Below are positions 17,304-54,496 of a stretch of 64,000 bases of DNA, one piece after another. The stretch comes from Ehretia macrophylla (taxonomy: Eukaryota > Streptophyta > Magnoliopsida > Boraginales > Ehretiaceae). The notes under the pieces were generated by a model, which did no database searches, was not told where the DNA came from, and saw only the letters and a program-made list of their open reading frames with translations. The stretch lies in contig CM075767.1 of the NCBI GenBank assembly GCA_037974665.1, positions 88,066,644-88,130,643 of the forward strand, written 5' to 3'. Both the position numbers and the translations under genes were made by a program. How positions within the stretch are numbered: the first letter of the stretch is position 1; each line of letters starts with the position of its first letter.

Positions 17304-17422
17304 GGGTGCGATCATACCAGCACTAATGCACGGGATCCCATCAGAACTTTGAAGTTAAGCGTGCTTGGGCGAGACTAGTACTAGGATGGGTGATCCCCTG
17401 GGAAGTCCTCATGTTGCACCCC
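17304..17422 (+). rRNA. 5S rRNA gene, copy 11
   Basis: Full length. Changes: C29G, C46T, C47T, G72C, C91T, G108A. Spacer is a near copy of that of copy 4. Confidence 0.93.
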
Positions 17423-17978
17423 CTTTTCAATTTTTTTTGCTCAGGTTAAGGTTGCCAAGATACTTTATCCACCACATTTATATTGTTGAATCCCACGGCA
17501 CCTTGGGCAAGACAACTTCGCTTCACGTGGAGGCTGGGCCAAGAAACAGAAGGCGTAAGGCTCAAGACCAGGTCTCCTTCGCTCCGGTGCCCATAACTTT
17601 TGATCCGTAAGGAGTTACGCGGCGCACAGCATACCGTTGCAAAGCTCTCTGAGAGCTCTACTACGCGGCAGCTAGCTTGCTCGTTATGCCTTTTGTGGAG
17701 CCCAAAATCAAACATTTTCTTCAGTTTCGGGCCACTTTTCTATTTTTCTTCTGTTTTTCCATCCTGGATCGTACGTCGTGAGCTATTAAAAGAACAACAA
17801 CCTTTCTCGCGGGACATTAGAGGGCCGTACAATGCGTCGATATCACGTCTTGCGACGATGCTGCGTTGTTGAAGCAGATGGGTTGTCGTTAAGCCCATTG
17901 GGCCTTTTGAAAGGGCCATCTCTCTACGCTGGGACTGTGAACCGTTAACACATAAAGGAAATGTGCCATCAACATGAC

Positions 17979-18097
17979 GGGTGCGATCTTACCAGCACTC
18001 ATTCACCGTATCCCATCAGAACTCTGAAGTTAAGCATGCTTGGGCGAGAGTAGAACTAGGATAGGTGACCACCTAGGAAGTCCTCGTGTTGCACCCC
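17979..18097 (+). rRNA. 5S rRNA gene, copy 12 (degenerate)
   Basis: Full length. Changes: A11T, A22C, G25T, G31T, C47T, G58A, T76A, G85A, C93A, G97A. Most are shared with copy 5, its duplicate at an offset of 4736 bp. Confidence 0.9.
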
Positions 18098-18654
18098 CCT
18101 TTTCAATTTTTTTGCCTCCGGTTAGGTTTGCCAAGATACTTTATCCACCACATTTCTATTATCGAATCCCACGGCACCTTGGGCAAGACAACTTCGCTTC
18201 ACGTGGAGGCTGGGCCAGCAAACCGAGGGCGTAGGGCTTGTGACTAGGTCTCGGTCGCTCCGGTGCCCATAACTTTTGATCCGTAAGGAGTTACGCGACG
18301 CTCAGCATACCGTTGCAATGCTCTCCTAGACTTCTACGACGGGGGCAGCCAGCTTGATCGCTTTGCCCATTTTTGGAGCCCAAAATTGAACGTTTTCATC
18401 AGTTTCGTACCACTTTTATTATTTAGCTCTATTTTTCTGTCCCGGATCGTACGTCGTGAGCTGTTAAAAGGACGACAACCTTACTCGCGGGACATTAGAG
18501 GCCCTACAATGCGTCGATATCATGTCTTGCGAGGATGCTGCGTTGTTGAAGCATATGGGTTGTCGTTAAGCCCATTGGGCCTTCTGAATGGGCCATCTCT
18601 TTATGCTGGGACTGTGAACTGTTAACACATAAAGGAATTATGCCTCAACATGAC

Positions 18655-18773
18655 GGGTGCGATCATACCAGCACTAATGCACCGGATCCCATCAGAACTC
18701 CGAATTTAAATGTGCTTGGGCGAGAATAGTACTAGGATGGGTGACCCCTAGGGAAGTCCTCGTGTTGCACCCC
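18655..18773 (+). rRNA. 5S rRNA gene, copy 13
   Basis: Full length. Changes: G51T, G56A, C57T, G72A (as copy 6), plus C95T, T96A. Box A is altered at three positions. Confidence 0.92.
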
Positions 18774-19333
18774 CCCTTTTCAATTTGTGTTGCTCCGGTT
18801 AGGGTTGCCAAGAAACTTTATGCACCATATTTCTATTATCGAATCCCACTGCACCTTGGGCAAGACAACTTTGCTTCACGTGGAGGATGGGCCAGCAAAC
18901 CGAGGGTGTAGGGCTTTTGACCAGGTCTCCGTCGCCCTGGTGCCCATAACTTTTGATCCGTAAGAAGTTACGCAGCGCACAGCATACCGTTGCAAGGCTA
19001 TTCGAGAGCTCTACAATGGGGGCAGCCAGCTTGCTCGCTGTGCATATTTTTGGTGTCCAAAATTGCACGTTTTCATCAGTTTCGGACCAGTTTTCTTCTT
19101 TTGCTCTGTTTTTCCATCCCGGATCCTACGTCGTGAGCTGTTAAAAGGACGACAACCTAACTCGCGTGATATTATAGGGCCCTAAAATGCGTCGATATCA
19201 CGTCTTGCGAGGATGCAGCATTTTTGAAGCAGATGGGTTGCCGTTAAGCCCATTGGGCCTTCTGAATGGGCCATCTCTCTAGGCTGGGACTATGTACCGT
19301 TAACACATAAAGGAATTGTGCCCTCAACATGAC

Positions 19334-19452
19334 GGGTGCGATCATGCCAGCACTAATGCACCGGATCTCATCAGAACTCCGAAGTTAAGCGTGCTTACGC
19401 GAGAGTAGTAATAGGATGGGTGACCCCCTGGGAAGTCCTCGTGTTGCACCCC
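19334..19452 (+). rRNA. 5S rRNA gene, copy 14
   Basis: Full length. Changes: A13G, C34T, G64A, G65C, C78A. Partner of copy 7. Confidence 0.93.
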
Positions 19453-20010
19453 CCTTTTCAATTGTTTTTGCTCCGGTTAGGGTTGCCAAGATACTTTATC
19501 TACCACATTTCTATTATCGAATCCCACGGTACCTTGGGCAAGACAACTTCACTTCACGTGGAGGCTGGGCCAGCAAACCGAGGGCGTAGGGCTTGTGACC
19601 AGGTCTCCGTCGCTCTAGTGCCCATAACTTTTCATCCGTAAGGAGTTACGCGGCACACAACATACCGTTGCAAAGCTCTCTGAGAGCTCTACTACGGGCG
19701 CAACTAGCATGCACGCTATGCCCGTTTTGGAGCCCAAAATCGAACGATTTCATCAGTTTCGGGCCACTTTTCTATTTTTGCTCTGTTTTTCCATCCCGGA
19801 TCGTACGTCGTGAGCTGTTAAAAGGATGACAACCTTTCTCGCGGGACTTTAGAAGGCTCTACAACGCGTCGATATCACGTCTTCCGAGGATGCTGCGTTG
19901 TTGAAATGGATGGGTTGTCATTAAGCACATTGTGCCTTCTGAATGGGCCATCTCTCTAGGCTGGGACTGTGAACCGTTAAAACATAAAGGAATTGTGCCC
20001 TCAACATGAC

Positions 20011-21329: not shown

Positions 21330-21448
21330 GGGTGGGAGCATACTAGCACTAATGTACCGAATCCCATGATAACTCCAAAGTTAAGCGTGCTTGGGGGAGA
21401 GTAGTACTAGGATGGGTGACGCCCTGGGAAGTCCTTGTGGGGCACTCC
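21330..21448 (+). rRNA. 5S rRNA gene, copy 17 (degenerate)
   Basis: Full length with about 14 changes, for example C6G, T9G, C15T, C26T, G31A, C39G, G41T, G48A, C67G, C92G, C106T, T111G, T112G, C117T. Both ends that pair in 5S helix I are damaged. Probably a pseudogene. Confidence 0.88.
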
Positions 21449-26825: not shown

Positions 26826-27384
26826 ACTTTTCTATTTTTTTTGCTCCTATTAGGGTTGCCAAGATACTTTATCCACCACATTTCTATTATCGAATCTCAC
26901 GGCATATTGGGCAAGACAACTTCGCTTCACTTGGAGGCTGGGCCCGCAAACCGAGGGCGTAGGGCTTGTGACCAGGTCTTCGTCGCTTCGGTGCCCATAA
27001 CTTTTGTTCCGTAAGGAGTTACGCAGCACACAGTATACCGTTGGAAAGCACTTCGAGAGCTCTACGACGGGGGCAGCTAGCTTGCTCGCTGTGTCCTTTT
27101 TGGAGGCCAAAATCGAATATTTTCATCAGTTTCGGGCTATTTTTCTGGTTTTTTCTCTGTTTTTCCATCCCGGATCGTATGTTGTGAGTTGTTAAACGGA
27201 CGACAACCTTACTCGCGGGACATTAGAGGGCCCTACAATGCGTCGATATCTCGTCTTGCGAGGATGCTGGGTTGTTGAAGCAGATGGGTTGTCGTTAAGC
27301 CCATTGGGCCTTCTGAATGGGCCATCTCTCTAGGCTGGGACTGTGAACCGTTAACACATAAAGGAATTGTGCTATCAACATGAC

Positions 27385-27503
27385 AGGTGCGATCATACCA
27401 GCAGTAATGCACCGAATCCCATCAGAACTCCGAAGTTAAGCGTGCTTGAGTGAGAGTAGTACGAGGATCGGTTACCCCCTGGGAAGTCCTCGTGTTGCAC
27501 CTC
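27385..27503 (+). rRNA. 5S rRNA gene, copy 26 (HOR type A)
   Basis: Full length. Changes: G1A, C20G, G31A, G65A, C67T, T79G, G85C, G89T, C118T. The set C20G/G65A/C67T/T79G/G85C recurs in copies 30, 34 and 38 and damages the IE and box C. Confidence 0.92.
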
Positions 27504-28061
27504 CCATTTCTACTTTTTTTGCTCCGGTTAGGGTTGCCAAGATACTTTATCCACCACATTTCTATTATCGAATCCCACAGCACCTTCGGCAAGAGAACTT
27601 CGCTTCACGTGGAGCTTGGGCCCGCAAACTGAGGGCGTAGGGCTTCTGACTAGGTCTCCGTTGATCCGGTGCCCATAACTTTTGATCCGTAAGGAGTTAC
27701 GCGGCGCACAACATACAGTTGCAAAGCACTCTGAGAGCTCTAAGACGAGGGCAGCCAGCTTGATGCTGTGCCTATTTTTGGAGCCCAAAATAGAACGTTT
27801 TCATCAGTTTCGGGCCACTTTTCTTCTTTTGCTCTGTTTTTTCATCCTGGATCGTACGTCGTGAGCTGTTAAAAGGACGACAACCTTACTCACAGGAAAT
27901 TAGAGGGCCCTACAACGCGTCGATATCACGTCTTGCTAGGATGCTGCGTTGTTGAAGCGGATGGGTTGTCGTTAAACCCATTGGGCGTTCTCAATTAGCC
28001 ATCTCTCTAGGCTGGGACTATGAACCGTTAACACATAAAGGAATTGTGCCCTTAACAAGAC

Positions 28062-28180
28062 TGATACGATCATACCAGCACTAATGCACCGGATCCCATC
28101 CGAACTCCGAAGTTAAACGTACTTGGGCGAGGGTAGTGCTAGGATGGGTGACCCCCTGGATAGTCCTCGTGTTGCACCCC
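28062..28180 (+). rRNA. 5S rRNA gene, copy 27 (HOR type B)
   Basis: Full length. Changes: G1T, G3A, G5A, A40C, G56A, G60A, A71G, A77G, G99A, A100T. G56A/G60A (box A) with A71G/A77G recur in copies 31 and 35. Confidence 0.92.
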
Positions 28181-28739
28181 CCTTTTCAATTTTTTTTGCT
28201 CCGGTTAGGGTTGCCAAGATACTTTATCCACCAAATTTTTATTATCGAATCCCACGGCACCATGGGCAAGACAACTTCGCTTCACATGGAGGCTGGGCCC
28301 GTAAACCGAGGGCGTAGGGCTTGCGACCAGGTCTCCGTCGCTCAGGTGACCATAAATTTTTATCTATAAGGAGTTACGCGTCGCACAGCATACCGTTGCA
28401 AAGCTCTCCGGGAGCTCTACGACGGGGGCAGCCAGCTTGCTCACTTTGCCCCTTTTTGGAGCCCAAAATCTAACATTTTCATCAGTTTCTGGCAACTTTT
28501 CTTCTTTTGCTCAGATTTTCCGTCCCGGATCATACGTCGTTAGCTGTTAAAAGGACGACAACCTTACTCACGAGACATTAGGGGCCCCTACAATGCGTTG
28601 ATATCACGTCTTGCGAGGATGTTGCGTTGTTGAAGCGGATGGGTTGTCGTTAAGCCCATTGGGCTTTCTGAATGGGCCATCTCTTTAGGCTGTAACTGTG
28701 AACCGTTAACACATAAAGGAATTGTGCCCTCAACAAGAC

Positions 28740-28858
28740 GGGTGTGATCATACCAACACTAATGCACCGGATCCCATCAGAACTCCGAAGTTAAGCGTGC
28801 TTGGGCGAGAGTAGTACTAGGATGGGCGACCCCCTGGGAAGTCTTCATGTTGCATACC
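28740..28858 (+). rRNA. 5S rRNA gene, copy 28 (HOR type C)
   Basis: Full length. Changes: C6T, G17A, T88C, C105T, G108A, C116T, C117A. Boxes A and IE are intact. Confidence 0.94.
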
Positions 28859-29416
28859 CCTTTTCAATTTTCTTTGCTCCGATTAGGGTTGTCAAGATAC
28901 TTTATCCACCACATTTCTTTATCGAATCTCACGGCACATTGAGCAGGACACCTTCGCTTCACGTGAATGCTGGGCCCGCAAACCGAGGGCGTAGGGCTTG
29001 TGACCTGGTCTCCGTCGCTCCGTTTCCCATAACTTTTGATCCGTAAGAAGTTACGCAGCGCACAATATACCATTGCACAGCTCTCTGAGAGCTCTACGAC
29101 GGGGAGAACCAACTTGCTCGTTGTGCCCATTTTTGGAGCCCAAAATCTAACGTTTTCATCAGTTTCCGACAACTTTTATTCTTTTGCTCTATTTTTTCGT
29201 CCCGGATCGTACGTCGTGAGCTGTTAAAAGGACGACAACCTTACTTGCGGGACATTAGAGGGCCCTACAATGCATCGATATCACGTCTTGTGAGGATGAT
29301 TCATTGTTGAACCGGATGGGTTGTCGTTAAGCCCATTGGGCCTTCTGAATGGGCCATCTCTCTAGGCTGGGACTGTGAATTGTTAACACATAAAGGAATT
29401 GTACCCTCAGCAAGAC

Positions 29417-29535
29417 GGGTGCGATAATACCAGCAATAATGCACCGGATCCCATCATAACTCCGAAGTTAAGCGTGCTTGGGTGAGAGTAGTACGAGGAT
29501 GGGTGACCCCGTGGGAAGTCCTAGTGTTGCGCCCC
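29417..29535 (+). rRNA. 5S rRNA gene, copy 29 (HOR type D, short unit)
   Basis: Full length. Changes: C10A, C20A, G41T, C67T, T79G, C95G, C107A, A115G. The unit is 619 bp. The T-rich tract and the TTAGGGTT motif that normally follow the gene are gone. Confidence 0.92.
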
Positions 29536-30035
29536 CCTTTTCACCTGATCCCATTGGGCCTTGTTGCACCCCCATTTTCACGTGGAGGCTGGGCCTGCAA
29601 ACCGAGGGCGTAGGGCTTGTGACCAGGTCTCCGTCGATCGGTTGCCCATAACTTTTGATCCGTAAGGAGTTACGCAGTGCACAGCACACCTTTGCAAAGC
29701 TCTCCGAGAGCTCTACGATGGGGGCAGCCAGCTTGCTCGCTGTGCCCCTTTTTGGAGCCAAAAATCGAACGTTTTCATCAATTTTGGGTCACTTTTCTTC
29801 CTTTGCTCGGTTTTTCCATCCCAGATCGTATGTCGTGAGCTGTTAAAAGGATGACAACCTTTCTCGTTGGGCATTAGAGGGCCCTACAACGCGTCGATAT
29901 CACGTCTTGCAAGGATGCAGCGTTGTTGAAGCGGATGGGTTGTCGTTAAGCCCAATGGGCCTTTTGAATGGGCCATATCTCTAGGCTGGGACAGTGAACC
30001 GTTAACAAATAAAGGAATTGTGCCCTCGACATGAC

Positions 30036-30154
30036 AGGTGCGATCATACCAGCAGTAATGCACCGGATCCCATCAGAACTCCGAAGTTAAGCGTGCTTGA
30101 GTGAGAGTAGTACGAGGATCGGTTACCCCCTGCGAAGTCCTCGTGTTGTGCCCC
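30036..30154 (+). rRNA. 5S rRNA gene, copy 30 (HOR type A)
   Basis: Full length. Type A set plus G98C, C114T, A115G; G1A as in copy 26. Confidence 0.92.
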
Positions 30155-30713
30155 CCATTTCTATTTTTTTTTCTCTGGTTAGGGTTGCCAAGATACTTTA
30201 TCCACCACATTTCTATTATCGAATCCCACGGCACCTTGGGCAAGAGAACTTCGCTTCACGTGGAGGTTGGTCCTACAAACCGAAGGCGTAGGGCTTGTGA
30301 CCAGGTCTCCGTTGATTCGGTGCCCATAACTTTTGATCCGTAAGGAGTTGCGCGGTGCACAACATACAGTTGCAAAGCTCTCTGAGAGCTCTAAGACGGG
30401 GGCAGCCAGCTTGCTCGCTGTGCCTATTTTTGGAGCCCAAAATCGAACGTTTTCATCAGTTTCGTCCCACTTTTCTTCTTTTGCTCTATTTTTTCATCCT
30501 GGATCATACGTCGTGAAGTGTTAAAAGGACGACAACCTTACTCGCGGGACATTAGAGGGACCTACAACGCGTCGATATCACGTCTTGCGAGGATGCTGCA
30601 TTGTTGAAGCGGATGGGTTGTCGTTAAGCCCATTGGGCCTTCTGGATGGGCCATCTCTCTAGGCTAGGACTGTGAACCGTTAACACATAAAGGAATTGTG
30701 CCCTAAACAAGAC

Positions 30714-30832
30714 TGGTACGATCATTCCAGCACTAATGCACCGGATCCCATCAGAACTCTGAAGTTAAACGTACTTGGGCGAGGGTAGTGGTAGGATGGG
30801 TGACCCCCTGGGAAGTCCTCGTGTTGCACCCC
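30714..30832 (+). rRNA. 5S rRNA gene, copy 31 (HOR type B)
   Basis: Full length. Changes: G1T, G5A, A13T, C47T, G56A, G60A, A71G, A77G, C78G. Confidence 0.92.
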
Positions 30833-31391
30833 TATTTTCAATTTTTTTTGCTCCGGTTAGGATTGCCAAGATACTTTGTCCACCACATTTCTATTATCGA
30901 ATCTCACGGCATATTGGGCAAGACAACTTCACTTCACGTGGAGGCTGGGCCCGTAAACCGAGGGCGTAAGGCTTACGACCAGGTCTCCGTCGCTCAGGTG
31001 ACCATAAATTTTTGTCTGTAAGGAGTTACGCATCGCACAGCATACCGTTGCAAAGCTCTCCGGGAGCTCTACGACGGGGGCAGCCAGCTTGCTCACTTTG
31101 CCCCTTTTTGGAGCCCAAAATCTAACATTTTCATCAGTTTCTGGCAACTTTTCTTCTTTTGCTCAGATTTTCCGTCCCGGATCATACGTCGTTAGCTGTT
31201 AAAAGGACGACAACCTTACTCACGAGACATTAGGGGCCCCTACAATGCGTTGATATCACGTCTTGCGAGGATGTTGCGTTGTTGAAGCGGATGGGTTGTC
31301 GTTAAGCCCATTGGGCTTTCTGAATGGGCCATCTCTTTAGGCTGCAACTGTGAACCGTTAACACATAAAGGAATTGTGCCCTCAACAAGAT

Positions 31392-31510
31392 GGGTGCGAT
31401 CATACCAGCACTAATGCACCGGATCCCATCAGAACTCCGAAGTTAAGCGTGCTTGGGCGAGAGTAGTACTAGGATGGGTGACCCCCTGGGAAGTCTTTGT
31501 GTTGCACACC
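31392..31510 (+). rRNA. 5S rRNA gene, copy 32 (HOR type C)
   Basis: Full length. Only C105T, C107T and C117A differ, all near the 3' end. The whole internal promoter is intact, so this is the best candidate for function in the tetrameric block. Confidence 0.95.
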
Positions 31511-32068
31511 CCTTTTCAATTTTCTTTGCTCCGATTAGGGTTGCCAAGATACTTTATCCACCACATTTCTTTATCGAATCTCAAGGCACATTGGGCAAGA
31601 CAACTTCACTTCACGTGAATGCTGGGCCCGCAAACCGAGGGCGTAGGGCTTGTGACCTGGTCTCCGTCGCTCCGGTGCCCATAACTTTTGATCCGTAAGA
31701 AGTTATGCGGCGCACAACACACCATTGCAAAGCTCTCCGAGAGCTCTACGATGGGGACAACCAACTTGATCGTTGTGCCCGTTTTTGGAGCCCAAAATCT
31801 AACGTTTTCATCAGTTTCTGACAACTTTTATTCTTTTGCTCTGTTTTTTCGTCCCGGATCGTACGTCGTGAGCTGTTAAAATGACGACAACCTTACTCGC
31901 GGGACATTAGAGGGCCCTACAATGCGTCGATATCACGTCTTGCGAGGATACTGCGTTGTTGAACCGGATGGGTTGTCGTTAAGCCCATTGGGCCTTCTGA
32001 ATGGGCCATCTCTCTAGGCTGGGACTGTGAATTGTTAACACATAAAGGAATTGTGCCCTCAGCAAGAC

Positions 32069-32187
32069 GGGTGCGATCATACCAGCAATAATGCACCGGA
32101 TCCCATCAGAACTCCGAAGTTAAGCATGCTTGGGTGAGAGTAGTACGAGGATGGGTGACCCCCTGGGAAGTCCTAGTGTTGCGCCCC
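32069..32187 (+). rRNA. 5S rRNA gene, copy 33 (HOR type D, short unit)
   Basis: Full length. Changes: C20A, G58A, C67T, T79G, C107A, A115G. Unit 619 bp with the same spacer deletion as copy 29. Confidence 0.92.
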
Positions 32188-32687
32188 CCTTTTCACCTGA
32201 TCCCATTGGGCCTTGTTGCACCCCCCTTTTCACGTGGAGGCTGGGCCTGCAAACCGAGGGAGTAGGGCTTGTGACCAGGTCTCCGTCGGTCCGTTGCCCC
32301 TAACTTTTGATTCGTAAGGAGTTACACAGAGCAGAGCATGCCGTTGCAAAGCTCTCCGAGAGCTCTACGACGGGGGCAGCCAGCTTGCTCGCTGTGCCCC
32401 TTTTTGGAGCGCAAAATCGAACATTTTCATTAGTTTCGGGCCACTTTTCTTCTTTTGCTCTGTTTTTCCGTCCCGGATCGTATGTCGTGAGCTGTTAAAA
32501 GGACGGCAACCTTACGCGGGGGACATTAGAGGGCCCGATAACGCGTTAATATCACGTCCTGCGAGGTTGCTGCGTTGTTGCAGCGGATTGGTTGTTGTTA
32601 AGCCTATTGGGCCTTCTGATTGGGCCATCTTTCTAGGCTGGGACAGTGCACCGTTAACAAATAAAGGACTTGTGCCCTCGACATGAC

Positions 32688-32806
32688 AGGTGCGATCATA
32701 CCAGCAGTAATGCACCGGATCCCATCAGACCTCCGAAGTTAAGCGTGCTTGAGTTAGAGTAGTACGAGGATCGGATACCCCCAGCGAAGTCCTCGTGTTG
32801 CACCCC
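32688..32806 (+). rRNA. 5S rRNA gene, copy 34 (HOR type A)
   Basis: Full length. Changes: G1A, C20G, A43C, G65A, C67T, G68T, T79G, G85C, T88A, G89T, T96A, G98C. The most decayed type A copy. Confidence 0.9.
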
Positions 32807-33365
32807 CCATTTCTATTTTTTTTGCTCCGGTTAGGGTTGCCAAGATACTTTATCCACCACATTTCTATTATCGAATTCCACGGCACATTGGGGAAGAGAA
32901 CTTTGCTTCACGTGGAGGTTGGGCCCGCAAACCGAAGGCGTAGGGCTTGTGACCAGGTCTCCGTTGATTCGGTGCCCATAACTTTTGATCCGTAAGGAGT
33001 TATGCGGCGTACAACATACAGTTGCAAAGCTCTCCGAGAGCTCTAAGACGAGGGCAGCCAGCTTTCTCGCTGTGCCTATTTTCGGAGCCCAAAATTGAAC
33101 TTTTTCATAAGTTTCGGGCCACTTTTCTTCTTTTGCTCTATTTTTTCATCTTGGATCGTACGTCGTGAGTTGTTAAAAGGATGACAACCTTACTCGTAGG
33201 ACATTAGAGGGCCCTACAACGCGTCTATATTACGTCTTACAAGGATGCTGCCTAGTTGAAACGGAGGGGTTGTCGTTAAGCCCATTGGGCCTGCTGAATG
33301 GGCCATCTCTCTTGGGTGGGACAGTGAGCCGTTAACACATAGAGGAATTGTGCCCTAAACAAGAC

Positions 33366-33484
33366 TGATACGATCATACCAGCACTAATGCACCGGATCC
33401 CATCAGAACTCCGAAGTTAAACGTACTTGGGCGAGGGTAGTGATAGGATGGGTGACCCCCTGGGAAGTCCTCGGGTTGCACCCC
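33366..33484 (+). rRNA. 5S rRNA gene, copy 35 (HOR type B)
   Basis: Full length. Changes: G1T, G3A, G5A, G56A, G60A, A71G, A77G, C78A, T109G. Confidence 0.92.
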
Positions 33485-34043
33485 TATTTTCAATTTTTTT
33501 TGCTCCGGTTAGGGTTGCCAAGATACTTTGTCCACCACATTTCTATTATCGAATCTCACGGCATATTGGGCAAGACAACTTCACTTCACGTGGAGGCTGG
33601 GCCCGCAAACCGAGGGCGTAGGGCTTGCGACCAGGTCTCCGTCACTCAGGTGACCATAAATTTTTATCTGTAAGGAGTTATGCGTCGCACAGCATACCGT
33701 TGTAAAGCTCTCCGGGAGCTCTACGATGGGGGCAGCCAGCTTGCTCACTTTGCCCCTTTTTGGAGCCCAAAATCTAACATTTTCATCAGTTTCCGGCAAC
33801 TTTTCTTCTTTTGCTCAGATTTTCTGTCCCGGATCATACGTCGTTAGCTATGAAAAGGACGACAACCTTACTCACGAGACATTAAAGGGCCCTACAACGC
33901 GTTGATATCACGTCTTGCGAGGATGCTGAGTTGTTGAAGCGGATGGGTTGTCGTTAAGCCCATTGGGCTTTCTGAATGGGCCATCTCTTTATGCTGCAAC
34001 TGTGAACTGTTAACACATCAATGAATTGTGCCCTCAACAAGAC

Positions 34044-34162
34044 GAGCACGATCATACCAGCACTAATGCACCGGATCCCATCAGAACTCCGAAGTTAAGC
34101 GTGCTTGGGCGAGAGTAGTACTAGGATGGGTGACCCCCTGGGAAGTCTTCGTGTTGCACACC
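34044..34162 (+). rRNA. 5S rRNA gene, copy 36 (HOR type C)
   Basis: Full length. Changes: G2A, T4C, G5A, C105T, C117A. Internal promoter intact, 5' terminal helix strand damaged. Confidence 0.94.
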
Positions 34163-34720
34163 CCTTTTCAATTTTCTTTGCTCCGATTAGGGTTGCCAAG
34201 ATACTTTATCCACCTCATTTATTTATCGAATCTCATGGCACATTGGGCAAGACTACTTCGCTTCACGTGAATGCTGGGCCCGCAAACTGAGGGCGTAGGG
34301 CTTGTGACCTGGTCTCCGTCGCTCTGGTGCCCATAACTTTTGATCCGTAAGAAGTTACGTGGCGCACAACATACCATTGCAAAGCTCTCCGAGAGCTCTA
34401 CGACGGGGACAACCAACTTGCTCGTTGTGCCCATTTTTGGAGCCCAAAATATAACGTTTTCATCAGTTTGCGACAACTTTTATTCTTTTGCTCTGTTTTT
34501 CTGTCCCGGATCGTACGCCGTGAGCTGTTAAAAGGATGACAACCTTATTCGCGGGACATTAGAGGGCCCTACAATGCGTCGATATCACGTCTTTTGAGGA
34601 TGCTGCGTTGTTGAACCGGATGGGTTGTCGTTAAGCCCATTGGGCCTTCTGAATGGGCCATCTCTCTAGGCTGGGACTGTGAATTGTTAACACATAAAGG
34701 AATTGTGCCCTCAGCAAGAC

Positions 34721-34839
34721 GGGTGCGATCATACCAGCAATAATGCACCGGATCCCATTAGAACTCCGAAGTTAAGCGTGCTTGGGTGAGAGTAGTACGA
34801 GGATCGGTGACCCCCTGGGAAGTCCTAGTGTTGCGCCCC
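34721..34839 (+). rRNA. 5S rRNA gene, copy 37 (HOR type D, short unit)
   Basis: Full length. Changes: C20A, C39T, C67T, T79G, G85C, C107A, A115G. Unit 618 bp. Confidence 0.92.
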
Positions 34840-35338
34840 CATTTTCACCTGATCCCATTGGCCTTGTTGCACCCCCCTTTTCACGTGGAGGCTGGGCCTG
34901 CAAACCGAGGGCGTAGGGCTTGTGACCAGGTCTCTGTCGATTCGTTGCCCCTAACTTTTGATTCGTAAGGAGTTATGCAGAGCACAGCATGCCGTTGCAA
35001 AGCTCTCCGAGAGCTCTACGACGGGGGAAGCCAGCTTGCTCACTGTGCCCCTTTTTGGAGCCCAAAAATGAACATTTTCATCAGTTTCGGGCCACTTTTC
35101 ATCTTTTGCTCTATTTTTCCGTCCCGGATCGTATGTTGTGAGCTGTTAAAAGGACGACAACCTTACGCGTGGGACATTAGAGGGCCCTATAACGCGTCGA
35201 TATCACGTCCTGCGAGGTTGCTGCGTTGTTGCAGCGGATTGGTTGTTGTTAAGCCTATTGGGCCTTCTGAATGGGCCATCTTTCTAGGCTGGGACAGTGA
35301 ACCGTTAACAAATAAAGGAATTGTGCCCTCGACATGAC

Positions 35339-35457
35339 AGGTGCGATCATACCAGCAGTAATGCACCGGATCCCATCAGAACTCCGAAGTTAAGCGTGCT
35401 TGAGTGAGAGTAGTACGAGGATCGGTTACCCCCTGGGAAGTCCTCGTGTTGCACCCC
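35339..35457 (+). rRNA. 5S rRNA gene, copy 38 (type A gene, chimeric unit)
   Basis: Full length. Changes: G1A, C20G, G65A, C67T, T79G, G85C, G89T. The gene is type A, but from about 35580 the spacer reads like that of type C (ACCTGGTCTCC, GACAACCAACTTGC). Confidence 0.93.
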
Positions 35458-36016
35458 CCTTTTCAATTTTTTTTCCTCCGGTTAGGGTTGCCAAGATACT
35501 TTATCCACCACATTTCTATTATCTAATCCCACGGCACCTTGGGCAAGACAACTTTGCTTCACGTGGAGGTTGGGCCCGCAAACCGAGGTCGTAAGGCTTG
35601 TGACCTGGTCTCCGTCGCTCCGGTGCCCATAACTTTTGATCCGTAAGAAGTTACGCGGTGCATAGCATACTGTTGCAAAGCTATCCGAGAGCTCTACGAC
35701 GGGGACAACCAACTTGCTCGTTGTGCCCATTTTTGGAACCCAAAATCTAACGTTTTCATCAATTTCCGACAACTTTTATTATTTTGCTCTGTTTTTCCAT
35801 CCCGGATCGTACGTCGTGAGCTGTTAAAAGGACGACAACCTTACTCGCGGGACATTAGAGGGCCCTACAATGCGTCGATATCACGTCTTGCGAGGATGCT
35901 GCGTTGTTGAAACGGATGGGTTGTCGTTAAGCCCATTGGGCCTTCTGAATGGGCCATCTTTCTTAGCTGGGACTGTGAACCGTTAAGACATAAAGGAATT
36001 GCGCCCTCAACAAGAC

Positions 36017-38204: not shown

Positions 38205-40458
38205 TGTCACGCCCCGACCCGACCCTGCAAAAGGCCAAGCCCGGACCCGACACACGGACGGAGTCTCCTCTGTACCGCGGACGATCTGAAAACCCTAAAA
38301 TCATCATAATACTTGCGAAAGCCATAAAACAATACTTGCGAAAGCCATAAGCCAACTTTCTTTTAACCAACTTTCCAAACCAAAATGCCAAGCATACTAC
38401 ACAAGTATTTATGCCACTAAACAGTTAGCTATTAGCATGCATTTCCTTACTAGTCACAAGAGTATAAGTTTACAACTTTACATTCTTTCAACTTATACAA
38501 CATAAGACCGTAGAGGCCTCAAACTAGAAAATACATACAAGGCTACAAGCCTCAAAATAAAGCGTCATCCCAACAATATACATATCAAGCAAGGCTAGCA
38601 CAAAATCTGGTAACCAACCACCAGCAAAGCAAAGAAGTGCTATCACGGAAACACCTCTACCTACCCCTCCTCCTCTATTACCTCAATAGGGTTTGCTTCA
38701 ACTACTTCTGTAAAAAAAATATAGTATAGAAAGGAATGAGCAAAAACTATTGCTCAGCAAGGGCAATTGGTCTCAAGGATGGAGATGAGAGGAGTATGCA
38801 ATGCAATTAGTCAAGCAATACATACAAGTATCATATAGAGATACCAATAAAGCCATCAATAAAGCAAGACAAGTATTTAAAGCTGTAAAAACTCATTCAA
38901 AGGATACGATACTCTTTTCACGAGCAACTTTCAAACACGAATTCGATGACGACGCGTTGGCCCAAACCACCTTATAACACCAGTTTGGAATACCCCGGAA
39001 GTATCCATCAACCTACGACCCAAAACTCCTTGGGAGGCAACCCAAGTGAGAAGATGGAATAGGAGCGGAGCTAGAGCAACCAACACTGGCAACCCGAGGC
39101 TACCCAGAGAGGCCCATCACTCACGTGCGAGACACTATGCAATGCAAGACTCGATAAAGCCACACGTTGGAGAATAACAAAGTAGGTTACTCTCGCACGC
39201 AAAAGCAACAATTGATAAGCATTTCAATCCAAATCAATTCAAACAAGTATTTCAAGCAACCCTAAGCATTCTATAGGCATAAAATCAAGAAAACAAGCAA
39301 AAACACAAATCGGCCCCAACTATCAAAACACTACCATTTTCAAACGACCCACGAGTTCTGGAAACCGACTTCGCCAATCCTCCTAGGTCACTATAAGGCA
39401 CGTCTAAAGACCCCGAAACCCTACTTAACCCTAGAATTCACGCAAAGTCCTGTTTTTCCCCTTTGCTCGATTGAACTACAACTATACCAACCAAACACCC
39501 AACCAACGCCATAATCGCACCAAAAGTACTTCCATGGCCTCCCAAAACAATGCCAACACGCAAAACGAGAAAACGCCAAACTCGACCTAACCGACCCCGA
39601 CTTTCACCAAGGCTTAATTCTCATTTTTTCCATTACGCAACCCAAACATACCATGCATTTATGTATTCTAGCACACCTAGCACATTTCTACATCAACGGG
39701 CAGCATAACGGAAAAACTTCATCGTTCCAAGGGTTTACTATTCACAAAACACTATTCAACAACTAATTTAAACTACAATCTCAACATTTAACTGTAGAAA
39801 ATGTTAAAAAGCTATAAATACACGTTCTACAATTGCCAAGGAACATTCTAGAAGCATCAAAACGCTTTAAACAACAATCTACGGATAAAATCTAAAAATC
39901 ACAAAGTTGATACACTTGACATTTAAATGCGCAAATAACATGATTCCCTCACCTTAGGCACTCCTAGTCGCTAGGAAAACAACGCTAGTCACCTCGGAAA
40001 CCACCCCGCCTGAGCTCACGCGAAGATTGAACGATTGGAAGTTGAAAGGTTTTTTTTTTCCCTCTTGGAAGCTCACGGCCTGCTCTCTGTTTCAGCTGCT
40101 ATTTTTTATTTTGTTTTGTTTTAAGCTTATTTAAGTGCTAAGTCTTTGGTCAAAGGTCAAGCCTTGGTCAACTACTTAAATTTGGTCAAAAAAGACTTAT
40201 TTCAATGCATTTTAAGCTAAAATAACTATCACTAATATAAATTTCAGCTAGCAACAAATAAAATATAAAATTTAAGTCATCCAAATACTAGTTTCACTAT
40301 TTGCTGAGGACTAGAAATCGTTCTCTAGCTATCGCTCCCTAAATGCAATGCACGTTGCGACAGCAAAGAAGTAACAATTAATTCTAAAAGAATTTAAGGA
40401 AATATAATTTTTAAAATAATAAACAAGGAATTTTCACATTCCGGGCTCGGGTATTACA
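38205..40458 (-). repeat. Element 2 3' LTR (2254 bp)
   Basis: On the + strand it runs from TGTCACGCCCCG to GGGTATTACA. Compared with the other LTR it is 31 bp shorter overall; an indel tract lies around 38330-38355. The + strand left end is denser in differences than the rest. Confidence 0.95.
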
Positions 40459-40471
40459 CCCTCTCCCCCTT
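40459..40471 (-). other. Element 2 polypurine tract
   Basis: On the - strand this reads AAGGGGGAGAGGG and directly abuts the TGTAATACC start of the 3' LTR. It overlaps the gag-pol stop codon (40470-40472). Confidence 0.9.
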
Positions 40472-41612
40472 AAAACAATTGCGCCCATGCAATTCTTACC
40501 TGGTCAACAAACAACTCCGGATACTGATCCCGAACTTGGTTCTCTCTTTCCCACGTTGCTTCCTCAAACCCATGATGATTCCACATAACCTTTACTAATG
40601 GAATACTCTTTCTGCGAAGCTCCTGAACTTTTCGATCCACAATTCGAATCGGTTTCTCTTCATAAGACAACTTCTCTTCAATCTGCAAAGGCTCTGGTTC
40701 AAGTACAGGTGAAGGGTCTGGATAGTATTTATTTAACATAGACACGTGGAACACATCGTGCAGTCTCGACAAGCTCGGAGGCAAAGCTAACCGATAAGCC
40801 AAAGGACCTATCTTTTCGGTGATCTCATACGGACCCACATACCTGGGACTAAGTTTCCCACTCTTACCGTGCCGAATCAATCCCTTCCGAGGAGAAATCT
40901 TAAGAAACAGCCAATCTCCCAAAGAAAACTCAAGATCTCGACGGTACTTATCCGCATAACTCTTCTGACGACTCTGAGCTGTAAGCATGCGCTGGCGAAT
41001 AAGGTGAACATTATCTACCATCTTAATCATCTCAGGTAACACAGTCGGATCAACTGTTCTCATCTCTCCAACCTCTTCCCAATATAACGGGGATCTGTAT
41101 TTCCGACCATACAACGCCTCGTAGCGAGCCATACCTATAGTAGATTGATAACTATTATTGTAGGCGAACTCCGCTAAAGGCAAAAACTTCTCCCAATTCT
41201 TCCCAAAGTCTAGCACACATGCCCGAAGCATATCTTCCAAGATCCTGATAGTTCTCTCAGACTGGCCATCAGTTTGTGGATGATATGCAGTACTGAAGCT
41301 CAACATAGTTCCCAGGGCCTCTTGCAACTTCTGCCAAAAACGAGATCTGAATCTGGGATCTCTATCTGACACTATACTATGTCGTACACCATGCAATCTC
41401 ACAATATTAGCAACATAAAGCTCAGCTAGCTTATCAAGGCTATCCTGTTTGTTCACGGGAATAAAATGTGTAACTTTAGTCAAGCGGTCCACAACAACCC
41501 AAACAGAATCATATCCTCTCGGAGATCTAGGAAGATCGGTCACAAGGTCCATTGTTATATGTACCCACTTCCATTGCGGAATCGACAATGGCTGTAGAAG
41601 TCCGGCTGGCCT
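40470..41612 (-). pseudogene. Element 2 integrase core and chromodomain-like tail
   Basis: Catalytic residues Asp (codon from 41549), Asp (41366, in VSDRDPRF) and Glu (41258, in [11 protein letters not shown]), with 35 residues between the last two. Then [36 protein letters not shown], and a tail with [18 protein letters not shown], the chromodomain-like module that in chromoviruses directs insertion to particular chromatin. It ends at TAA 40470. Confidence 0.94.
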
Positions 41613-42488
41613 CTAATGCTCAACTTTAACCCTCTGACAAGTCAAACATCTGGATACATACCCAGCAATCTCTCTCTTCATATTGTTCCACCAAAAGTAT
41701 TGTTTCAAATCTCTATACATTTTAGTACTGCCTGGGTGAATCGTATATCTCGAATTATGTGCCTCGGACAGAATCTCATTCTTCAAAGTCGGATCACCAG
41801 GAACACATACTCTGTCCCTGAATCTGAAGATACCATCTGCATGTAATTTAAACTCCGACTCTCCCCTTTTAGCTTTTTCTTGGATTTTCAAGATGTAAGG
41901 ATCAGTCTTCTGAGCCTCTCTGATCTGTGCTAGCAACCCTGACTGAATCTGTAAACTAGCAAATCGAATCCCTACCTCAGTAGCTTCTGGCTTCCATGAA
42001 CAAATTTCTTCCAAAGTCTCCCAATCCTTGATAATTAAGCTTGCAACAGTAGCCTTTCGGCTCAAAGCATCAGCAACAACATTTGCCTTACCTGGAACGT
42101 AGTTAATAGAACAATTGTAACCACTCAATAGCTCTAGCCACCTCCGCTGCCTCATATTCAGATCCTTCTGTGAAAACAAATACTTGAGACTCTTGTGGTC
42201 AGTAAAAATTTCAAATCTGCTACCCCACAAGTAGTGACGCCACTTCTTCAAAGAAAACACAACTGCAGCTAACTCAAGATCATGTGTAGGGTAATTGACT
42301 TCATAAGGTTTCAACTTCCTAGAAGCATAAGCAATCACCTTACCATTCTGCATTAAAACACAGCCCAAACCTTCTTTAGATGCATTACTGTAGACAACAA
42401 AGTTTTCGGTTCCCTCAGGCAAAGCTAGTATAGGAGCTGTAGTTAGTCTCTTCTTCAATTCTTGGAAACTGGATTCACATTTAGCATC
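41613..42488 (-). pseudogene. Element 2 RNase H and integrase zinc-binding part
   Basis: RNase [18 protein letters not shown] has Asn (codon AAT, 42384-42386) where element 1 and the family have the first catalytic Asp. [30 protein letters not shown] and VADALSRK follow. The integrase HHCC region reads [20 protein letters not shown] and RCLTCQRVK. The segment ends at TAG 41613-41615, just before the integrase core. Confidence 0.94.
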
Positions 42489-44441
42489 CTAGTTGTAAGC
42501 AACTTTCTTTCGAGTCAACTGGCTCAAAGGCCCAAAAATTTTGGAAAAGTCTTTAACAAACCTCCGGTAGTAACCTGCCAATCCAAGAAAACTCCGAATC
42601 TTTGACACCGTTTCAGGTCTCTTCCAAGATGAAACAACCTCAATTTTAGCTGGGTCCACTAAAATCCCTCGATCTAAAATGATATGGCCTAGAAAAGATA
42701 TCTGATTCAACCAGAACTCGCACTTGCTGAATTTAGCAAAAAGCTTGTTTTCCTTCAAAGTCTGTAGCACAATCCTCAAGTGTTGTTCATGCTCAGCCTC
42801 ATTCTTCGAGTACACTAAAATGTCGTCAATAAAGATTACGACAAACTGATCAAGATAAGGTCGAAAAACTCTCTGCATCAAGTCCATGAATGTGACTGGA
42901 GCATTCGTCAAACCAAACGGCAACACAACAAATTCATAGTGGCCATATCTGGTCCTGAATGCCGTCTTTGGTATATCGTCACTCCGAATCCTAAGTTGAT
43001 AGTAACCCTGCCTCAAGTCAAATTTGGAGTAAACACTCGCACCCTGCAACTGGTCAAACAATTCTTCAATCAACGGCAAGGGGTATTTGTTCTTAATCGT
43101 GACTTGATTAAGTCCCCTATAATCAATGCATAACCGTAGCGTACCGTCTTTATTTCTCACAACCAACACAGGCGCACCCCACGGCGAAGAACTAGGTTGT
43201 ATAAACCCTTTCTCAAGCAAATTCTGAAGCTGAATTTTTAACTCCTGAAGTTCAGCCAATGCCATTCTATAAGGACTCCTAGAAATTGGCGCAGTGCCTG
43301 GCACAAGATCAATCACGAACTCAATCTCCCTATCCGATGGTAAACCCGGTAATTCCTCGAGAAATATACCAGGGAAGTCTCTAACAATCAGAACCTCATT
43401 CAAACTCAACTTATCAGTAGGCTGATTGATCAAATAAGCTAAGTAAGCTTCGCAACCCCTATTCAACAACTTAGATGTCTTGATCACTGATAAAAGAGGA
43501 ATTCGGGCAGCCCTGCAATTCCCAACAATCTCCAGTACCAGTAGGTCAGGAACCTGAAGATAAACGACCTTTGTTCTACAATCCAACTGAGCATAGTACT
43601 TCTCCAACCAGTCCATTCCCAAAATGATTTCAAAGTCACGGAATGGCAATATAATTAAATCAGCAGGAAATTTACGGTTCTCAATGCATATATCACAAGA
43701 TTTGCAAATAGACTCAGTAACAAATTTTGCACCCAAAGGCGTACTAACTTCAACTTCATGAGGCAGTTTATCAATGCAAACATTCACAGATCGTGCACAT
43801 GCAGGAGTTATAAACGAATGTGTAGCTCCGAGATCAATCAAAACTTTAACTATAGCTGTAGTATTGAGAAGAAAGGTACCTTCCACTATAGCTGTAGTAT
43901 CGGGTAGCTCCTCTGCATCCAGTGCAAAGACCCTAGCCTGAACCCTCTGTGCTGGACGTGCACCTGTAGCCCTATTCTGCACACCTTGGCCTCCAGTACG
44001 GCCCTGAACATTGTTATACTTAGGGCAATCTCTCACCCTATGATCATCGCTTCTACAGCCTGTGCATTTACCACTCTTCCTCCAGCAATTAGCCTCAATA
44101 TGCCCCGATCGATTACAATAGTTACACTGCTGATTTTGCCTTACAACAGTGTTTCCTGTAGGTGCTGGGGCTCTGGCAGGGGTAGGAACTGTACCTCCCT
44201 GCTGGGGTCTAGTCATAGCTGGCCTAGCCTGAATCTGCTGTTGTAGCTGATACGGACGTTGCTGAGGAACCTGTGCAGAAGTCTGATACTGCCTCGGCTG
44301 ACTCTGGCTGCTCTGGCCCAAATACTGTTTCTTACTCAGCTGACTGCTCTCAGCTAACATCTCAGCCTTCAGTTTCTCAAACTTCGAGGCTGCCTGAAAT
44401 GCCTCGGGAAAAGTAGTGTAGGTCTGCCCAGTCAAATGCAA
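42489..44441 (-). pseudogene. Element 2 nucleocapsid, protease and reverse transcriptase part
   Basis: 650 codons between two TAG codons. Two zinc knuckles lie at about residues 106-119 ([14 protein letters not shown], nt 44085-44126) and 126-139 ([14 protein letters not shown], nt 44025-44066). The protease active site [13 protein letters not shown] is near nt 43835 and [16 protein letters not shown] follows. Reverse transcriptase has [47 protein letters not shown] and the FIDD Asp pair (codons 42822-42827). It ends in the connection to RNase H. Leu follows the protease Asp where Ser/Thr is classic. Confidence 0.95.
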
Positions 44442-45089
44442 CTAAATGTCCATTCTCAGCCCACGGACAAACCTATGAATCATCCTCCTAGCTGGCCGTA
44501 CCAACTCGGGCATATACCTCGACAGGCTAACAAACCTAGCCTTGTACTGTGCAACAGTCATATTTCCCTGCTTCAAGGCCACAAACTCATCCTCCCGCCT
44601 TTCCATACCCATCTCGGGAATATACTTGTCTCGAAACTCACTTACAAAATCATCCCATAAATGTGGAACATCCTCACAATCCCACCTCAACCTGACAGTA
44701 TTCCACCACTGCTCTGCATCACCCTCAAACAGGAATGACGCATAATCTATTCTTGCCTCATCAGTGTACCTCAAAGCGGTGAAAATTTTCTCAACACGAT
44801 TAATCCATCTCTTGGCCGCCTCATCATCTGGCTCTCCGAAGAACTTTCCCGGCTCGTGCCTCAGAAATTTCTCTAGCTGGTTATTCTCAACTCTATACCC
44901 CTGTCCACCAGGATTAGCTTGATTTCCCTGGGGATTATTCCTTTCCTGCCTCTGCTCATGCAGCACCTGGGTAATCCAGTCAACCGCTGTAGTCATAGTA
45001 GCCATAAACTGCTCAAGCAACGGTTGCTGACCCTGTTTTGCTGCCTCTTCATCTGACCCTAAACCTTGAGTGCCATGACGTGGCGGCAT
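44442..45089 (-). pseudogene. gag: Element 2 gag, N-terminal and capsid part
   Basis: 215 codons. The start MPPRHGTQG is followed by a Gln/Asn-rich linker and a retrotransposon gag capsid domain: LEKFLRHEPGKFFGEPDDEA, WINRVEKIFTAL, AEQWWNTVRLRW, then LKQGNMTVAQYKARFVSLSR. It ends at the TAG at 44442-44444. The ATG lies 313 bp after the 5' LTR. Confidence 0.93.
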
Positions 45090-45402
45090 AGTAGCAATTC
45101 ACAATAGCTGGCAACATTTAAAAGCAGTTTATAGACAGAAATATAGCACATAAGATTAGATAACACTCAAGTCAATAACAATCAAACATTCTAACACGCA
45201 ATTCACATAACACAAGATTGACATGCCAAACTAATTCACTTTAAACACATAAGCACTACAAGTTCACAAGATCATGCTATAACACTTTATTTCCACTTAA
45301 CAATTATACAATAACATTCTAGCATTTTGGACCTTTACCCCACAGATCGAGAAACATATCCTGGCTCATGCAAGACTATCATGCTCTGATACCACCTAAA
45401 GA
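45090..45402 (-). other. Element 2 leader with initiator-Met tRNA primer-binding site
   Basis: On the - strand TGGTATCAGAGC (45383-45394) begins eight bases after the LTR end. It is an exact complement of the 3' end of plant initiator tRNA-Met, the common primer of plant Ty3/gypsy and Ty1/copia elements. The remaining 290 bases to the gag ATG hold no recognisable feature. Confidence 0.95.
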
Positions 45403-47687
45403 TGTCACGCCCTAACCCAACCCCGCAAAAGGCCAAGCCCAGACCCGACACACGGACAGAGTCTCCTTTGTACCGCGGACGATCCGAAAACCCTAAAATC
45501 ATCATAATACTTGCGAAAGCCATAAAACCATTCAAACAAGCCAACTTTCTTTTAAAAACATACATCCTCTTATTAACCAACTTTCCAAATCAAAATGCCA
45601 TGCATACTACACAAGTATTTATGCCACTAAACAGTTAGCTATTAGCATGCATTTCCTTACTAGTCACAAGAGTATAAGTTTACAACTTTACATTCTTTCA
45701 ACTTATACAACATAAGACCGTAGAGGCCTCAAACTAGAAAATACATACAAGGCTACAAGCCTCAAAATAAAGCGTCATCCCAGCAATATACATATCAAGC
45801 AAGGCTCGCACAAAATCTGGTAACCAACCACTAGCAAAGCAAAGAAGTGCTATCACGGAAACACCTCTACCTGCTCCTCCTCCTCTATTACCTCAATAGG
45901 GTCTGCTTCAACTACTCCTGTAAAAATATAGTATAGAAAGGAATGAGCAAAAACTATTGCTCAGCGAGGGCAATTGGTCTCAAGGACGGAGATGAGAGGA
46001 GTATGCAATGCAATTAGTCAAGCAATACATACAAGTATCATATAGAGATACCAATAAAGCCATCAATAAAGCAAGGCAAGTATTTAAAGCTGTAAACACT
46101 CATTCAAAGGATACGATACTCTTTTCACGAGTAAGTTTCAAACACAAATTTGATGACAACGCGCCGGCCCAAACCACCTTATAACACCAGTTTGGAATAC
46201 CCCGGAAGTATCCATCACCCTATGACCCAAAACTCCCTGGGAGGCAACCCAAGCGAGAAGAGGGAATAGCAGTGGAGCTAGAGCAACCAACACTGGCAAC
46301 CCGAGGCTACCCAGAGAGGCCCATCACTCACGCGCGAGACACTATGTAATGCAAGACTCGATAAAAGGAAAGAAACAAGCGATAAAGCCACATGTGGGAG
46401 AACAACAAAGTAGGTTACTCTCGCACGCAAAAGCAACAAATGGTAAGCAACTCAATCCAAATCAATTCAAACAAGTATTTCAAGCAACCCTAAGCATTCT
46501 ATAGGGATAAAATCAAGAAAACAAGCAACAACTCAAATCGGCCCCAACTATTAAAACACTACCATTTCCAAACGAGCCACGAGTTCTGGAAACCGACTTT
46601 GCCAATCCTCATAGGTCACTATAAGGCACGTCTAAAGACCCCGAAACCATATTTAACCCTGGAATTCACGCAATGTCCCGTTTTTCCCCTTTGCTTGTTT
46701 GAACTACAACTATACCAACCAAACACCCAACCAACACCATAATCGCACCAAAAGTGCTTCCATGGCCTCCCGAAACAATACCAACACGCAAAACGAGAAA
46801 ATGCCAAACTCAACCTAAATGACCCCGACTTTCCCCAAGGCTTAATTCCCGTTTTTTCCATTACGCAACCCAAATAAACCATGCATTTATGCATTCTAGC
46901 ACACCTAGCACATTTCTACATCAACGGACAGCATAACGGAACAACTTCATCGTTCCAAGGGTTTACTATTCATAAAACACTATTCAACAACTAATTTAAA
47001 CTACAATCTCAACATTTAACTGCAGAAAATGTTAAAAAGCTATAAATACACGTTCTACAATTGCCAAGGAACATTCTAGAAGCATCAAAATGCTTTAAAC
47101 AACAAACTACGGATAAAATCTAAAAATCACAAAGTTGATACACTTGACATTTAAACGCACAAATAACATGATTGCCTCACCTTAGGCACTCCTAGTCTCT
47201 AGGAAAACAACGCTAGTCACCTCGGAAACCACCCCGCCCGAGCTCACGCGAAGATTGATAGATTGGAAGTTGAAAGGTTTTTTTTTTCCTCTTGGAAGCT
47301 CACGGCCTGCTCTCTGTTTCAGCTGCTATTTTTTTTTGTTTTTTTTGTTTTAAGCTTATTTAAGTGCTAAGTCTTTGGTCAAAGGTCAAGCCTTGGTCAA
47401 CTACTTAAAATTGGTCAAAAAAGACTTATTTCAATGCATTTTAAGCTAAAATAACTATCACCAATATAAATTTCAGCTAGCAACAAATAAAATATAAAAT
47501 TTAAGTCATCCAAATACTAGTTTCACTATTTGTTGAGGACTAGAAACCGTTCTCTAGCTATCGCTCCCTAAATGCAATGCATGTTGCGACAGCAAAGAAG
47601 TAACAATTAATTCTAAAAGAATTTAAGGAAATATAATTTTCAAAATAATAAACAAGGAATTTTCACATTCCGGGCTCGGGTATTACA
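45403..47687 (-). repeat. Element 2 5' LTR (2285 bp)
   Basis: Homologous along its length to 38205-40458, with the same termini. Bases 46275-46330 include a stretch that is identical in the LTR of element 4 although the surrounding sequence is strongly diverged. Confidence 0.95.
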
Positions 47688-53070: not shown

Positions 53071-53146
53071 ATTTTCACTTTTTTTTTGCTCCGGTTAGGG
53101 TTGCCAAGATACTTTATCCACCACATTTCTATTATCGAATCTCACG

Positions 53147-54420: not shown

Positions 54421-54496
54421 CATTTTCATTTTTTTTTGCTCCGGTTAGGGTTGCCAAGATACTTTATCCACCACATTTCTATTATCAAATCTCACA

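Follow-up and report, generated by a model that had tools for sequence, protein, structure and literature searches.

How do the units of a 5S ribosomal DNA (rDNA) array, the textbook case of concerted evolution, come to recur in blocks of four? The question is raised by a 64,000-nucleotide stretch of Ehretia macrophylla DNA (C4:88066644-88130643, on contig CM075767.1; hereafter the window) taken from an assembly of 1.58 Gb in 20 contigs. The window carries a tandem array of 677-bp 5S units, within which four distinguishable units, designated A, B, C and D, are repeated in order as a tetramer. In our judgement this tetramer is probably a higher-order repeat (HOR) that formed locally, within a single array belonging to a dispersed 5S-derived satellite, through rare multi-unit exchange. 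The window is best read as a small piece of that satellite, and the tetramer as one outcome among several.

Order and identity of the A-B-C-D units

Rfam identifies 58 full-length 5S genes in the window, all on the + strand, between 11214 and 59154 and at a spacing of ~677 bp; with a truncated first unit at 10594 they make up the 59 units counted in the initial annotation. The gene consensus of the array is a complete 5S sequence, and unit 56 (57681) carries exactly that gene. Successive A genes, including that of a partial fourth copy (35339), are separated by steps of 2651, 2652 and 2651 bp, and the B, C and D genes by steps of 2652 bp throughout (gene starts are collected in Table 1). The initial annotation, which proposed three ordered copies with a period of 2651-2652 bp and even spacing of all four gene series to within one base, is upheld on both counts by these steps and by the identities, clades and shuffles that follow.

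Units of the same type are 93.8% identical on average (range 91.3-96.2, n=12) and units of different type 85.4% (82.2-89.1, n=54), and the nearest unit within the array is of the same type for all twelve. When the twelve units are shuffled 200,000 times, no arrangement surpasses the real one, and 13 equal it. Over the 57 full units, the best run of eight pairs at one offset is found at offset 4 from unit 25 (94.3%) and is matched by 0/2000 shuffles; the best four-pair run is likewise matched by none and the best five-pair run by one of 2000. In a maximum-likelihood (ML) tree, A1-A3, B1-B3, C1-C3 and D1-D3 each form a clade (ultrafast bootstrap 100; Shimodaira-Hasegawa-like approximate likelihood ratio test, SH-aLRT, 99-100), which is the clustering by type that the initial annotation predicted. 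It had also expected units 26, 30, 34 and 38 to fall together: the three A units do cluster, but the fourth (unit 37), taken as a whole, lies outside A1-A3.

A segment scan places the tetramer repeat at 27378 to about 35573-35586. The best segment scores 358, above all 60 shuffled unit orders (maximum 297), and two further tetramer segments (263 and 252) exceed 59 of the 60. Under both scoring schemes used, the two top segments are those at offsets 4 and 7. The offset-7 duplication scores 344, again above 60/60 shuffles, and in the ML tree its units 2-6 and 9-13 group pairwise as sisters. Weaker blocks at offsets 2, 3, 6, 9, 12, 13 and others score no more than 184, below the best shuffles.

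Alpha satellite HORs consist of diverged monomers in fixed order, with an array-specific period and with copies of the period more alike than the monomers within it; active centromeric HORs, those of alpha satellite included, comprise many near-identical copies. The tetramer shares the first set of traits, being built of distinct monomers in fixed order with units one period apart closer than neighbours. It differs from alpha satellite in that its unit holds a 5S gene and in that its copies are well below near-identity. Because there are three copies and a part, 93-95% alike, the tetramer is, as judged from its sequence, an HOR in structure and not an active centromeric HOR.

History of the block and divergence of its copies

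The three D units are 619, 619 and 618 bp long, compared with ~677 bp for units in general, so that the constant shortening of D claimed at the outset holds. Directly behind the gene they are missing ~100 bp of spacer, whose place is taken by ~45 bp of filler similar, by eye, to the unit's distal spacer and to the end of its gene; the deletion may have arisen when a break was repaired with templated filler. The junction string occurs in all three D units and nowhere else in the eight 5S loci that were read (see below), which implies that the deletion preceded amplification. Four distinct neighbouring units were thus multiplied as a block with the D deletion already present, and the copies then diverged. 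The distal spacer of D1 (about 29648-29979) is unlike that of D2 and D3; copy 1 was therefore altered separately.

The fourth copy is incomplete. Unit 37 carries 7 of the 14 A-diagnostic alleles and 6 of the 16 C-diagnostic alleles; it lacks the A markers at 35460, 35465 and 35549 (three changes common to A1-A3) as well as the C marker at 35672 and the C markers from 35912 onward. By these alleles the unit is mosaic, composed of three or more parts joined at two or more switches. The initial annotation had the fourth copy start at 35339 and pass into C-type spacer near 35580, and the change does fall between 35570 and 35606. Its interpretation as the breakpoint of an unequal exchange fits this change, but with two or more switches in the unit gene conversion is also a possible source. 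Some short tracts look as if they had been exchanged between copies: B1 and B2 do not differ at any of 252 polymorphic columns (28381-28692; shuffling p=0.0005), and in-register identity tracts were found for 3 of 19 pairs examined (units 26-30, 4-11 and 49-51; p 0.0005 each), the other 16 having p of 0.007 or more.

The copies differ at 161, 139 and 188 of ~2650 aligned positions, and many of these differences are private. Tandem arrays are often misassembled, and copies of one tetramer might have been wrongly joined; a divergence of 5-7% between copies, much of it private, makes assembly duplication so improbable that we set it aside. The initial annotation's concern about an artefact is largely answered in this way, though the copy number could still change with long reads. 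Kimura two-parameter (K2P) distances are 0.064 between copies 1 and 2, 0.055 between 2 and 3, and 0.075 between 1 and 3. At plant substitution rates between 7e-9 and 1.3e-8 per site and year the copies would be about 2 to 5 million years apart. The long terminal repeats (LTRs) of two retrotransposons in the array diverge by 0.052 (middle element) and 0.034 (left element), which at the same rates gives ages alike or younger. Among the 304 units read, the best matches of tetramer units outside the twelve are only 87.7-92.3% identical.

The K2P distances also bear on a different origin, in which a circle of four units was excised, copied by rolling-circle replication and reinserted, yielding three tandem copies in one step. 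Three copies with one period, a D junction without relatives elsewhere in eight loci, and a spacer-only satellite (described below) that could also stem from a circle would all suit such an event. Rolling-circle copies, however, begin identical and equidistant, while here copies 1 and 3 are the farthest apart; later conversion could blur such unequal distances. We consider the circle unlikely.

A dispersed 5S-derived family

A first look across the assembly with a 5S model yielded 274,483 candidates, 47 of which were scored, and each of the first eight 5S loci retrieved, which are spread over seven contigs, proved to be an array built of the 677-bp unit. From the eight array regions that were read, one of them at the window locus, 304 units with intervals of 560-760 bp were taken. 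Mean identity within a locus is lowest at the window locus (87.5%) and highest at C10:17 Mb (95.3%). The nearest relative of a unit lies in the same locus for 189/304 units and is the adjacent (next listed) unit for only 12/304.

The family is also met in random samples of the assembly (20 of 1.5 kb, one per contig within the first 66 Mb, and 80 of 400 b, length-weighted): it is present in 2/20 and 15/80, or 17/100 in all (95% interval 10.2-25.8%). By alignment, 11 of these 17 samples are of full type, extending beyond unit positions 165-503, and 6 are of another kind. Full-type units accordingly occur in 11/100 samples (5.6-18.8%), or in 11/80 (7.1-23.3%) of the length-weighted set; the gene itself is visible in 7 samples of the 17, every one of full type, and the remaining 4 full-type samples are classed by spacer alone. 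One full-type sample, L112, is a rearranged short form. The product of 274,483 candidates, unconfirmed as they are, and 677 bp is 11.8% of the genome, consistent with the sample figure, and 5S-type units appear to fill about a tenth of the 1.58 Gb. Samples of the other kind belong to a gene-free tandem satellite of 341-342 bp, delimited at two loci (C11:45.4 Mb and C18:2.1 Mb) by Tandem Repeats Finder; it corresponds to unit positions 165-503, mostly at 84-90% identity, and may either derive from the 5S spacer or have been captured by it.

The family is thus tandem, similar to both the 5S gene and its spacer, and, with 17/100 samples and eight array loci, far above a usual 5S rDNA locus in copies and loci. 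Instead of a satellite the window could hold an ordinary 5S rDNA locus, part of which is old and has been poorly homogenised, much as the maize telomere-to-telomere assembly has a 5S array with one older, more diverse end rich in transposable elements (PMC10335936, in the portion available). Complete 5S genes, an internal promoter region kept in many units and a gene that evolves more slowly than the spacer are what such a locus would have. Arrays of the unit on many contigs, the frequency in random samples and the existence of a spacer-only satellite of apparently common origin are not, and we regard an ordinary locus as improbable. Only 4/304 units have the consensus gene and 21/304 are within one change of it, 12 of these 21 at C10:17 Mb. 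The uniform genes, diverging far less than the spacer, that would mark a functional locus are not seen at the window locus (10.6% against 12.9%); C10:17 Mb comes nearest (gene 3.2%, spacer 5.0%). This array (C10:17.07-17.09 Mb) is the most uniform of those read, with 12 of its 28 genes no more than one change away from consensus, and holds the nearest relative of 38 of 120 window-locus units. It is a candidate for the source of the family or for an active 5S locus.

Cassandra arrays contain a 5S segment inside an LTR, with a primer-binding site and a polypurine tract. An origin of the present unit as a Cassandra retroelement array appears unlikely since full-length 5S genes recur at constant spacing. 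Transitions from consensus in the window spacer affect 11.9% of CpG sites, compared with 3.6% of CHH and 1.8% of A/T sites, an excess such as methylated DNA would be expected to accumulate.

Multi-unit periods are not confined to the tetramer. Period scans covered seven array loci, the window and six others (25 shuffles for each of the six), and five of the seven have a period above every shuffle, of 3, 4, 5, 6 or 7 units (Table 1). Taken with the offset-7 duplication in the window, these periods rule out the tetramer as a unique feature. The initial annotation, in which one 5S array contained an odd tetramer, was right about the HOR and apt in likening a multi-unit period to satellites; its frame was too narrow in that the window is, by the best reading, a piece of a dispersed satellite. 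Arrays at C12:67.26-67.28 Mb and C2:87.965-87.985 Mb share a block, the best unit pair being 99.7% identical; either blocks move or exchange between chromosomes or these units were lately duplicated.

Table 1. Features of the window (window coordinates) and of related loci elsewhere in the assembly
Feature	Position	Strand	Basis or remark
Tetramer copy 1	27378-30029	+	Genes A1 27385, B1 28062, C1 28740, D1 29417; gene positions, identities, segment scan
Tetramer copy 2	30030-32681	+	Genes A2 30036, B2 30714, C2 31392, D2 32069; gene positions, identities, segment scan
Tetramer copy 3	32682-35332	+	Genes A3 32688, B3 33366, C3 34044, D3 34721; gene positions, identities, segment scan
D1 unit, 619 bp	29417-30035	+	D2, 32069-32687; D3, 34721-35338; unit alignment, junction string
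Start of fourth copy (A4, unit 37)	35333-35570	+	Last A-diagnostic allele 35570; segment scan, diagnostic alleles
C-type spacer tract in unit 37	35606-35778	+	C markers gone again by 35912; diagnostic alleles
Tandem array of 677-bp 5S units, interrupted by a retrotransposon	10594-59140	+	Extends past both window ends; Rfam and flanking sequence
Multi-unit duplication, left copy, offset 7 units	12338-15147	+	Segment scan, tree
Multi-unit duplication, right copy	17076-19882	+	94.8% identical to left copy; segment scan, tree
Two-unit-offset block	53079-56688	+	53079-55337 resembles 54429-56688 (95.7%); segment scan, score below best of 60 shuffles
Ty3/gypsy-type retrotransposon inside unit 41	38205-47687	-	Target-site duplication ACCAA; Pfam matches
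Second LTR retrotransposon, inserted in a 5S gene	1-10593	+	Target-site duplication AGAAC; starts 1.4 kb left of window
Hexamer, period 4056 bp	C4:30.0 Mb		Score 538, null maximum 248
Heptamer, period 4773 bp	C8:90.1 Mb		Score 602, null maximum 268
Pentamer, period 3382 bp	C9:3.4 Mb		Score 470, null maximum 194
Trimer, period 2031 bp	C17:8.5 Mb		Score 109, null maximum 87
341-342 bp satellite samples	L039 (C11:45.4 Mb), L046 (C18:2.1 Mb), L062, L075, L125, L128		6/100 random samples

The array in the window does not end at 10594, because 5S gene matches continue in the 40 kb to the left (60, some partial); a further 20 lie in the 20 kb to the right. The lowest Rfam score in the array, 55.8 bits, belongs to the gene at 21330-21448, whose unit has no close relative there. 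The retrotransposon inside unit 41 has Pfam matches to reverse transcriptase, protease, gag and the Ty3 capsid, with an integrase-core match below the curated cut-off. Database matches to a transposon protein of the window come from plants, none above 66% identity among the 120 matches listed. The left element has unusually long LTRs of ~3.6 kb, 96.7% identical (window 6999-10593 and C4:88065247 onward). At the right end (window 59136-62072) a 5S unit passes directly into sequence resembling the LTR start of the left element, and the array resumes ~11.7 kb further right (C4:88134827 onward) beside a transposon piece.

Probable unequal exchange, precedents and meaning

The block would have originated when sister chromatids or homologues, out of register by four units, underwent unequal exchange; to reach three copies and a partial fourth, at least two rounds would be needed. 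At the tetramer locus exchange would later have become rare, so that mutation overtook homogenisation, most units drifting much as those of a satellite do. The same process with other offsets could generate the periods of 3, 5, 6 and 7 units seen elsewhere. The period as such is assigned no function.

This process was simulated as mutation with unequal exchange followed by an exchange-free phase, tuned to the mean and best-match identities of the real arrays (87.7% and 93.6%; simulated, 86.4-88.0% and 93.8-94.2%). With multi-unit offsets a multi-unit period block arises in 36/40 arrays for each of two offset distributions; with single-unit exchange neither a multi-unit block nor a three-copy period arises in any of 40, and on this count single-unit exchange was rejected as the source of the pattern. 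Judging by these counts, a three-copy tetramer in one window is to be expected now and then under neutrality. That neutral exchange suffices in simulation speaks against selection for the period, whether in the service of chromosome structure or of a centromere, as has been argued for some satellites; the locus-specific periods do resemble centromeric HORs, in resemblance only, and we think selection very improbable.

Several observations weigh against multi-unit exchange and free drift as a complete account. Multi-unit exchange gave the three-copy period in just 3 and 4 of 40 simulated arrays, and under a looser criterion the models could not be told apart in simulation, single-unit exchange then reaching 8 and 22 of 25. 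Crossing-over does not by itself account for the mosaic unit 37 or the odd spacer of D1, both of which also call for conversion, and the identity of the exchanging chromatids is not visible from one assembly. The array loci were picked by best 5S score and are not a random sample; among those scanned, C12:67.3 Mb has no period above its null (score 91, null maximum 111), and the uniform array at C10:17.1 Mb has no multi-unit period, its best segment being at offset 1 (606, null maximum 580). Gene divergence is 0.63-0.95 of spacer divergence, depending on the locus: over 37 duplicate pairs it is 3.8% against 4.9% for the spacer (ratio 0.78, p 0.002), and over the 12 tetramer pairs 4.6% against 6.5% (p 0.005). 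The gene part is thus mildly but significantly more conserved, and wholly free drift is therefore disfavoured. Local formation of the tetramer by rare multi-unit exchange is nonetheless the account that we prefer.

Parts of this finding have precedents; the combination is unreported in the literature searched. In Prosopanche panguanensis (Hydnoraceae) 5S rDNA exceeds 15% of the genome, which its authors call unprecedented to their knowledge, and it shares with the Ehretia array the standing of a dominant repeat; that figure comes from short reads, the 5S genes of Hydnoraceae are strongly divergent whereas the gene here is complete by Rfam, and the accessible part of the report mentions no multi-unit period (PMC12222929). 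Pike (Esox) likewise carries 5S genes in very high copy number, arranged in large blocks in which variants are mixed, and its authors stated in 2017 that 5S higher-order organisation had, to their knowledge, been unexamined in any system; its genes are homogeneous and potentially functional, 'higher-order' there refers to blocks, inversions and mixed variants, and a fixed multi-unit period does not figure in the sections available (PMC5437419). Tribolium freemani has 5S spacer sequences in tandem arrays of their own, comparable with the 341-bp satellite, and transposons in its clusters as here; it is an insect with genes 99.4% alike, and the text at hand reports no multi-unit period (PMC11202950). 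In Landoltia punctata neighbouring 5S units belong to different spacer classes in five two-unit clones, which also runs counter to unit-by-unit homogenisation, but their order is described, in the part of the paper available, as a random mosaic (PMC8264772). Titles and abstract beginnings that were searched disclose no fixed multi-unit 5S period in a plant (most subscription journals lay outside the scope of that search, which is not proof of absence), and none is described in the accessible portions of PMC10335936, PMC5688495, PMC11070557, PMC9757041, PMC10462631, PMC8902033 and PMC4273535.

What calls for explanation is why a 5S unit became a dispersed satellite, more than the tetramer, which on the simulations may by itself be taken as a fair by-product of neutral multi-unit exchange. 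A bolder reading, in which 5S rDNA has turned into the plant's major chromosome-wide satellite in its 677-bp and 341-bp forms, perhaps structural or centromeric at some loci, is put forward tentatively and is on balance doubtful; of its elements, the abundance and the locus-specific periods have support here, and the structural or centromeric role is putative. If it is true, arrays with HOR periods of their own spread very many copies of an internal RNA polymerase III promoter across the genome, and 5S-derived arrays may take roles that unrelated satellites fill elsewhere.

In this plant the behaviour of a multicopy gene family resembles that of satellite DNA. About a tenth of the genome appears to consist of 5S-type units that have largely escaped from concerted evolution, with a block structure that records exchanges at offsets of 3 to 7 units, each at its own locus. 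One can ask how a cell deals with surplus 5S-like genes that number on the order of 100,000. Since its monomer comes from a known gene, the family also lets one ask how satellite DNA arises from a gene family, and how HOR periods arise without assuming a centromere.

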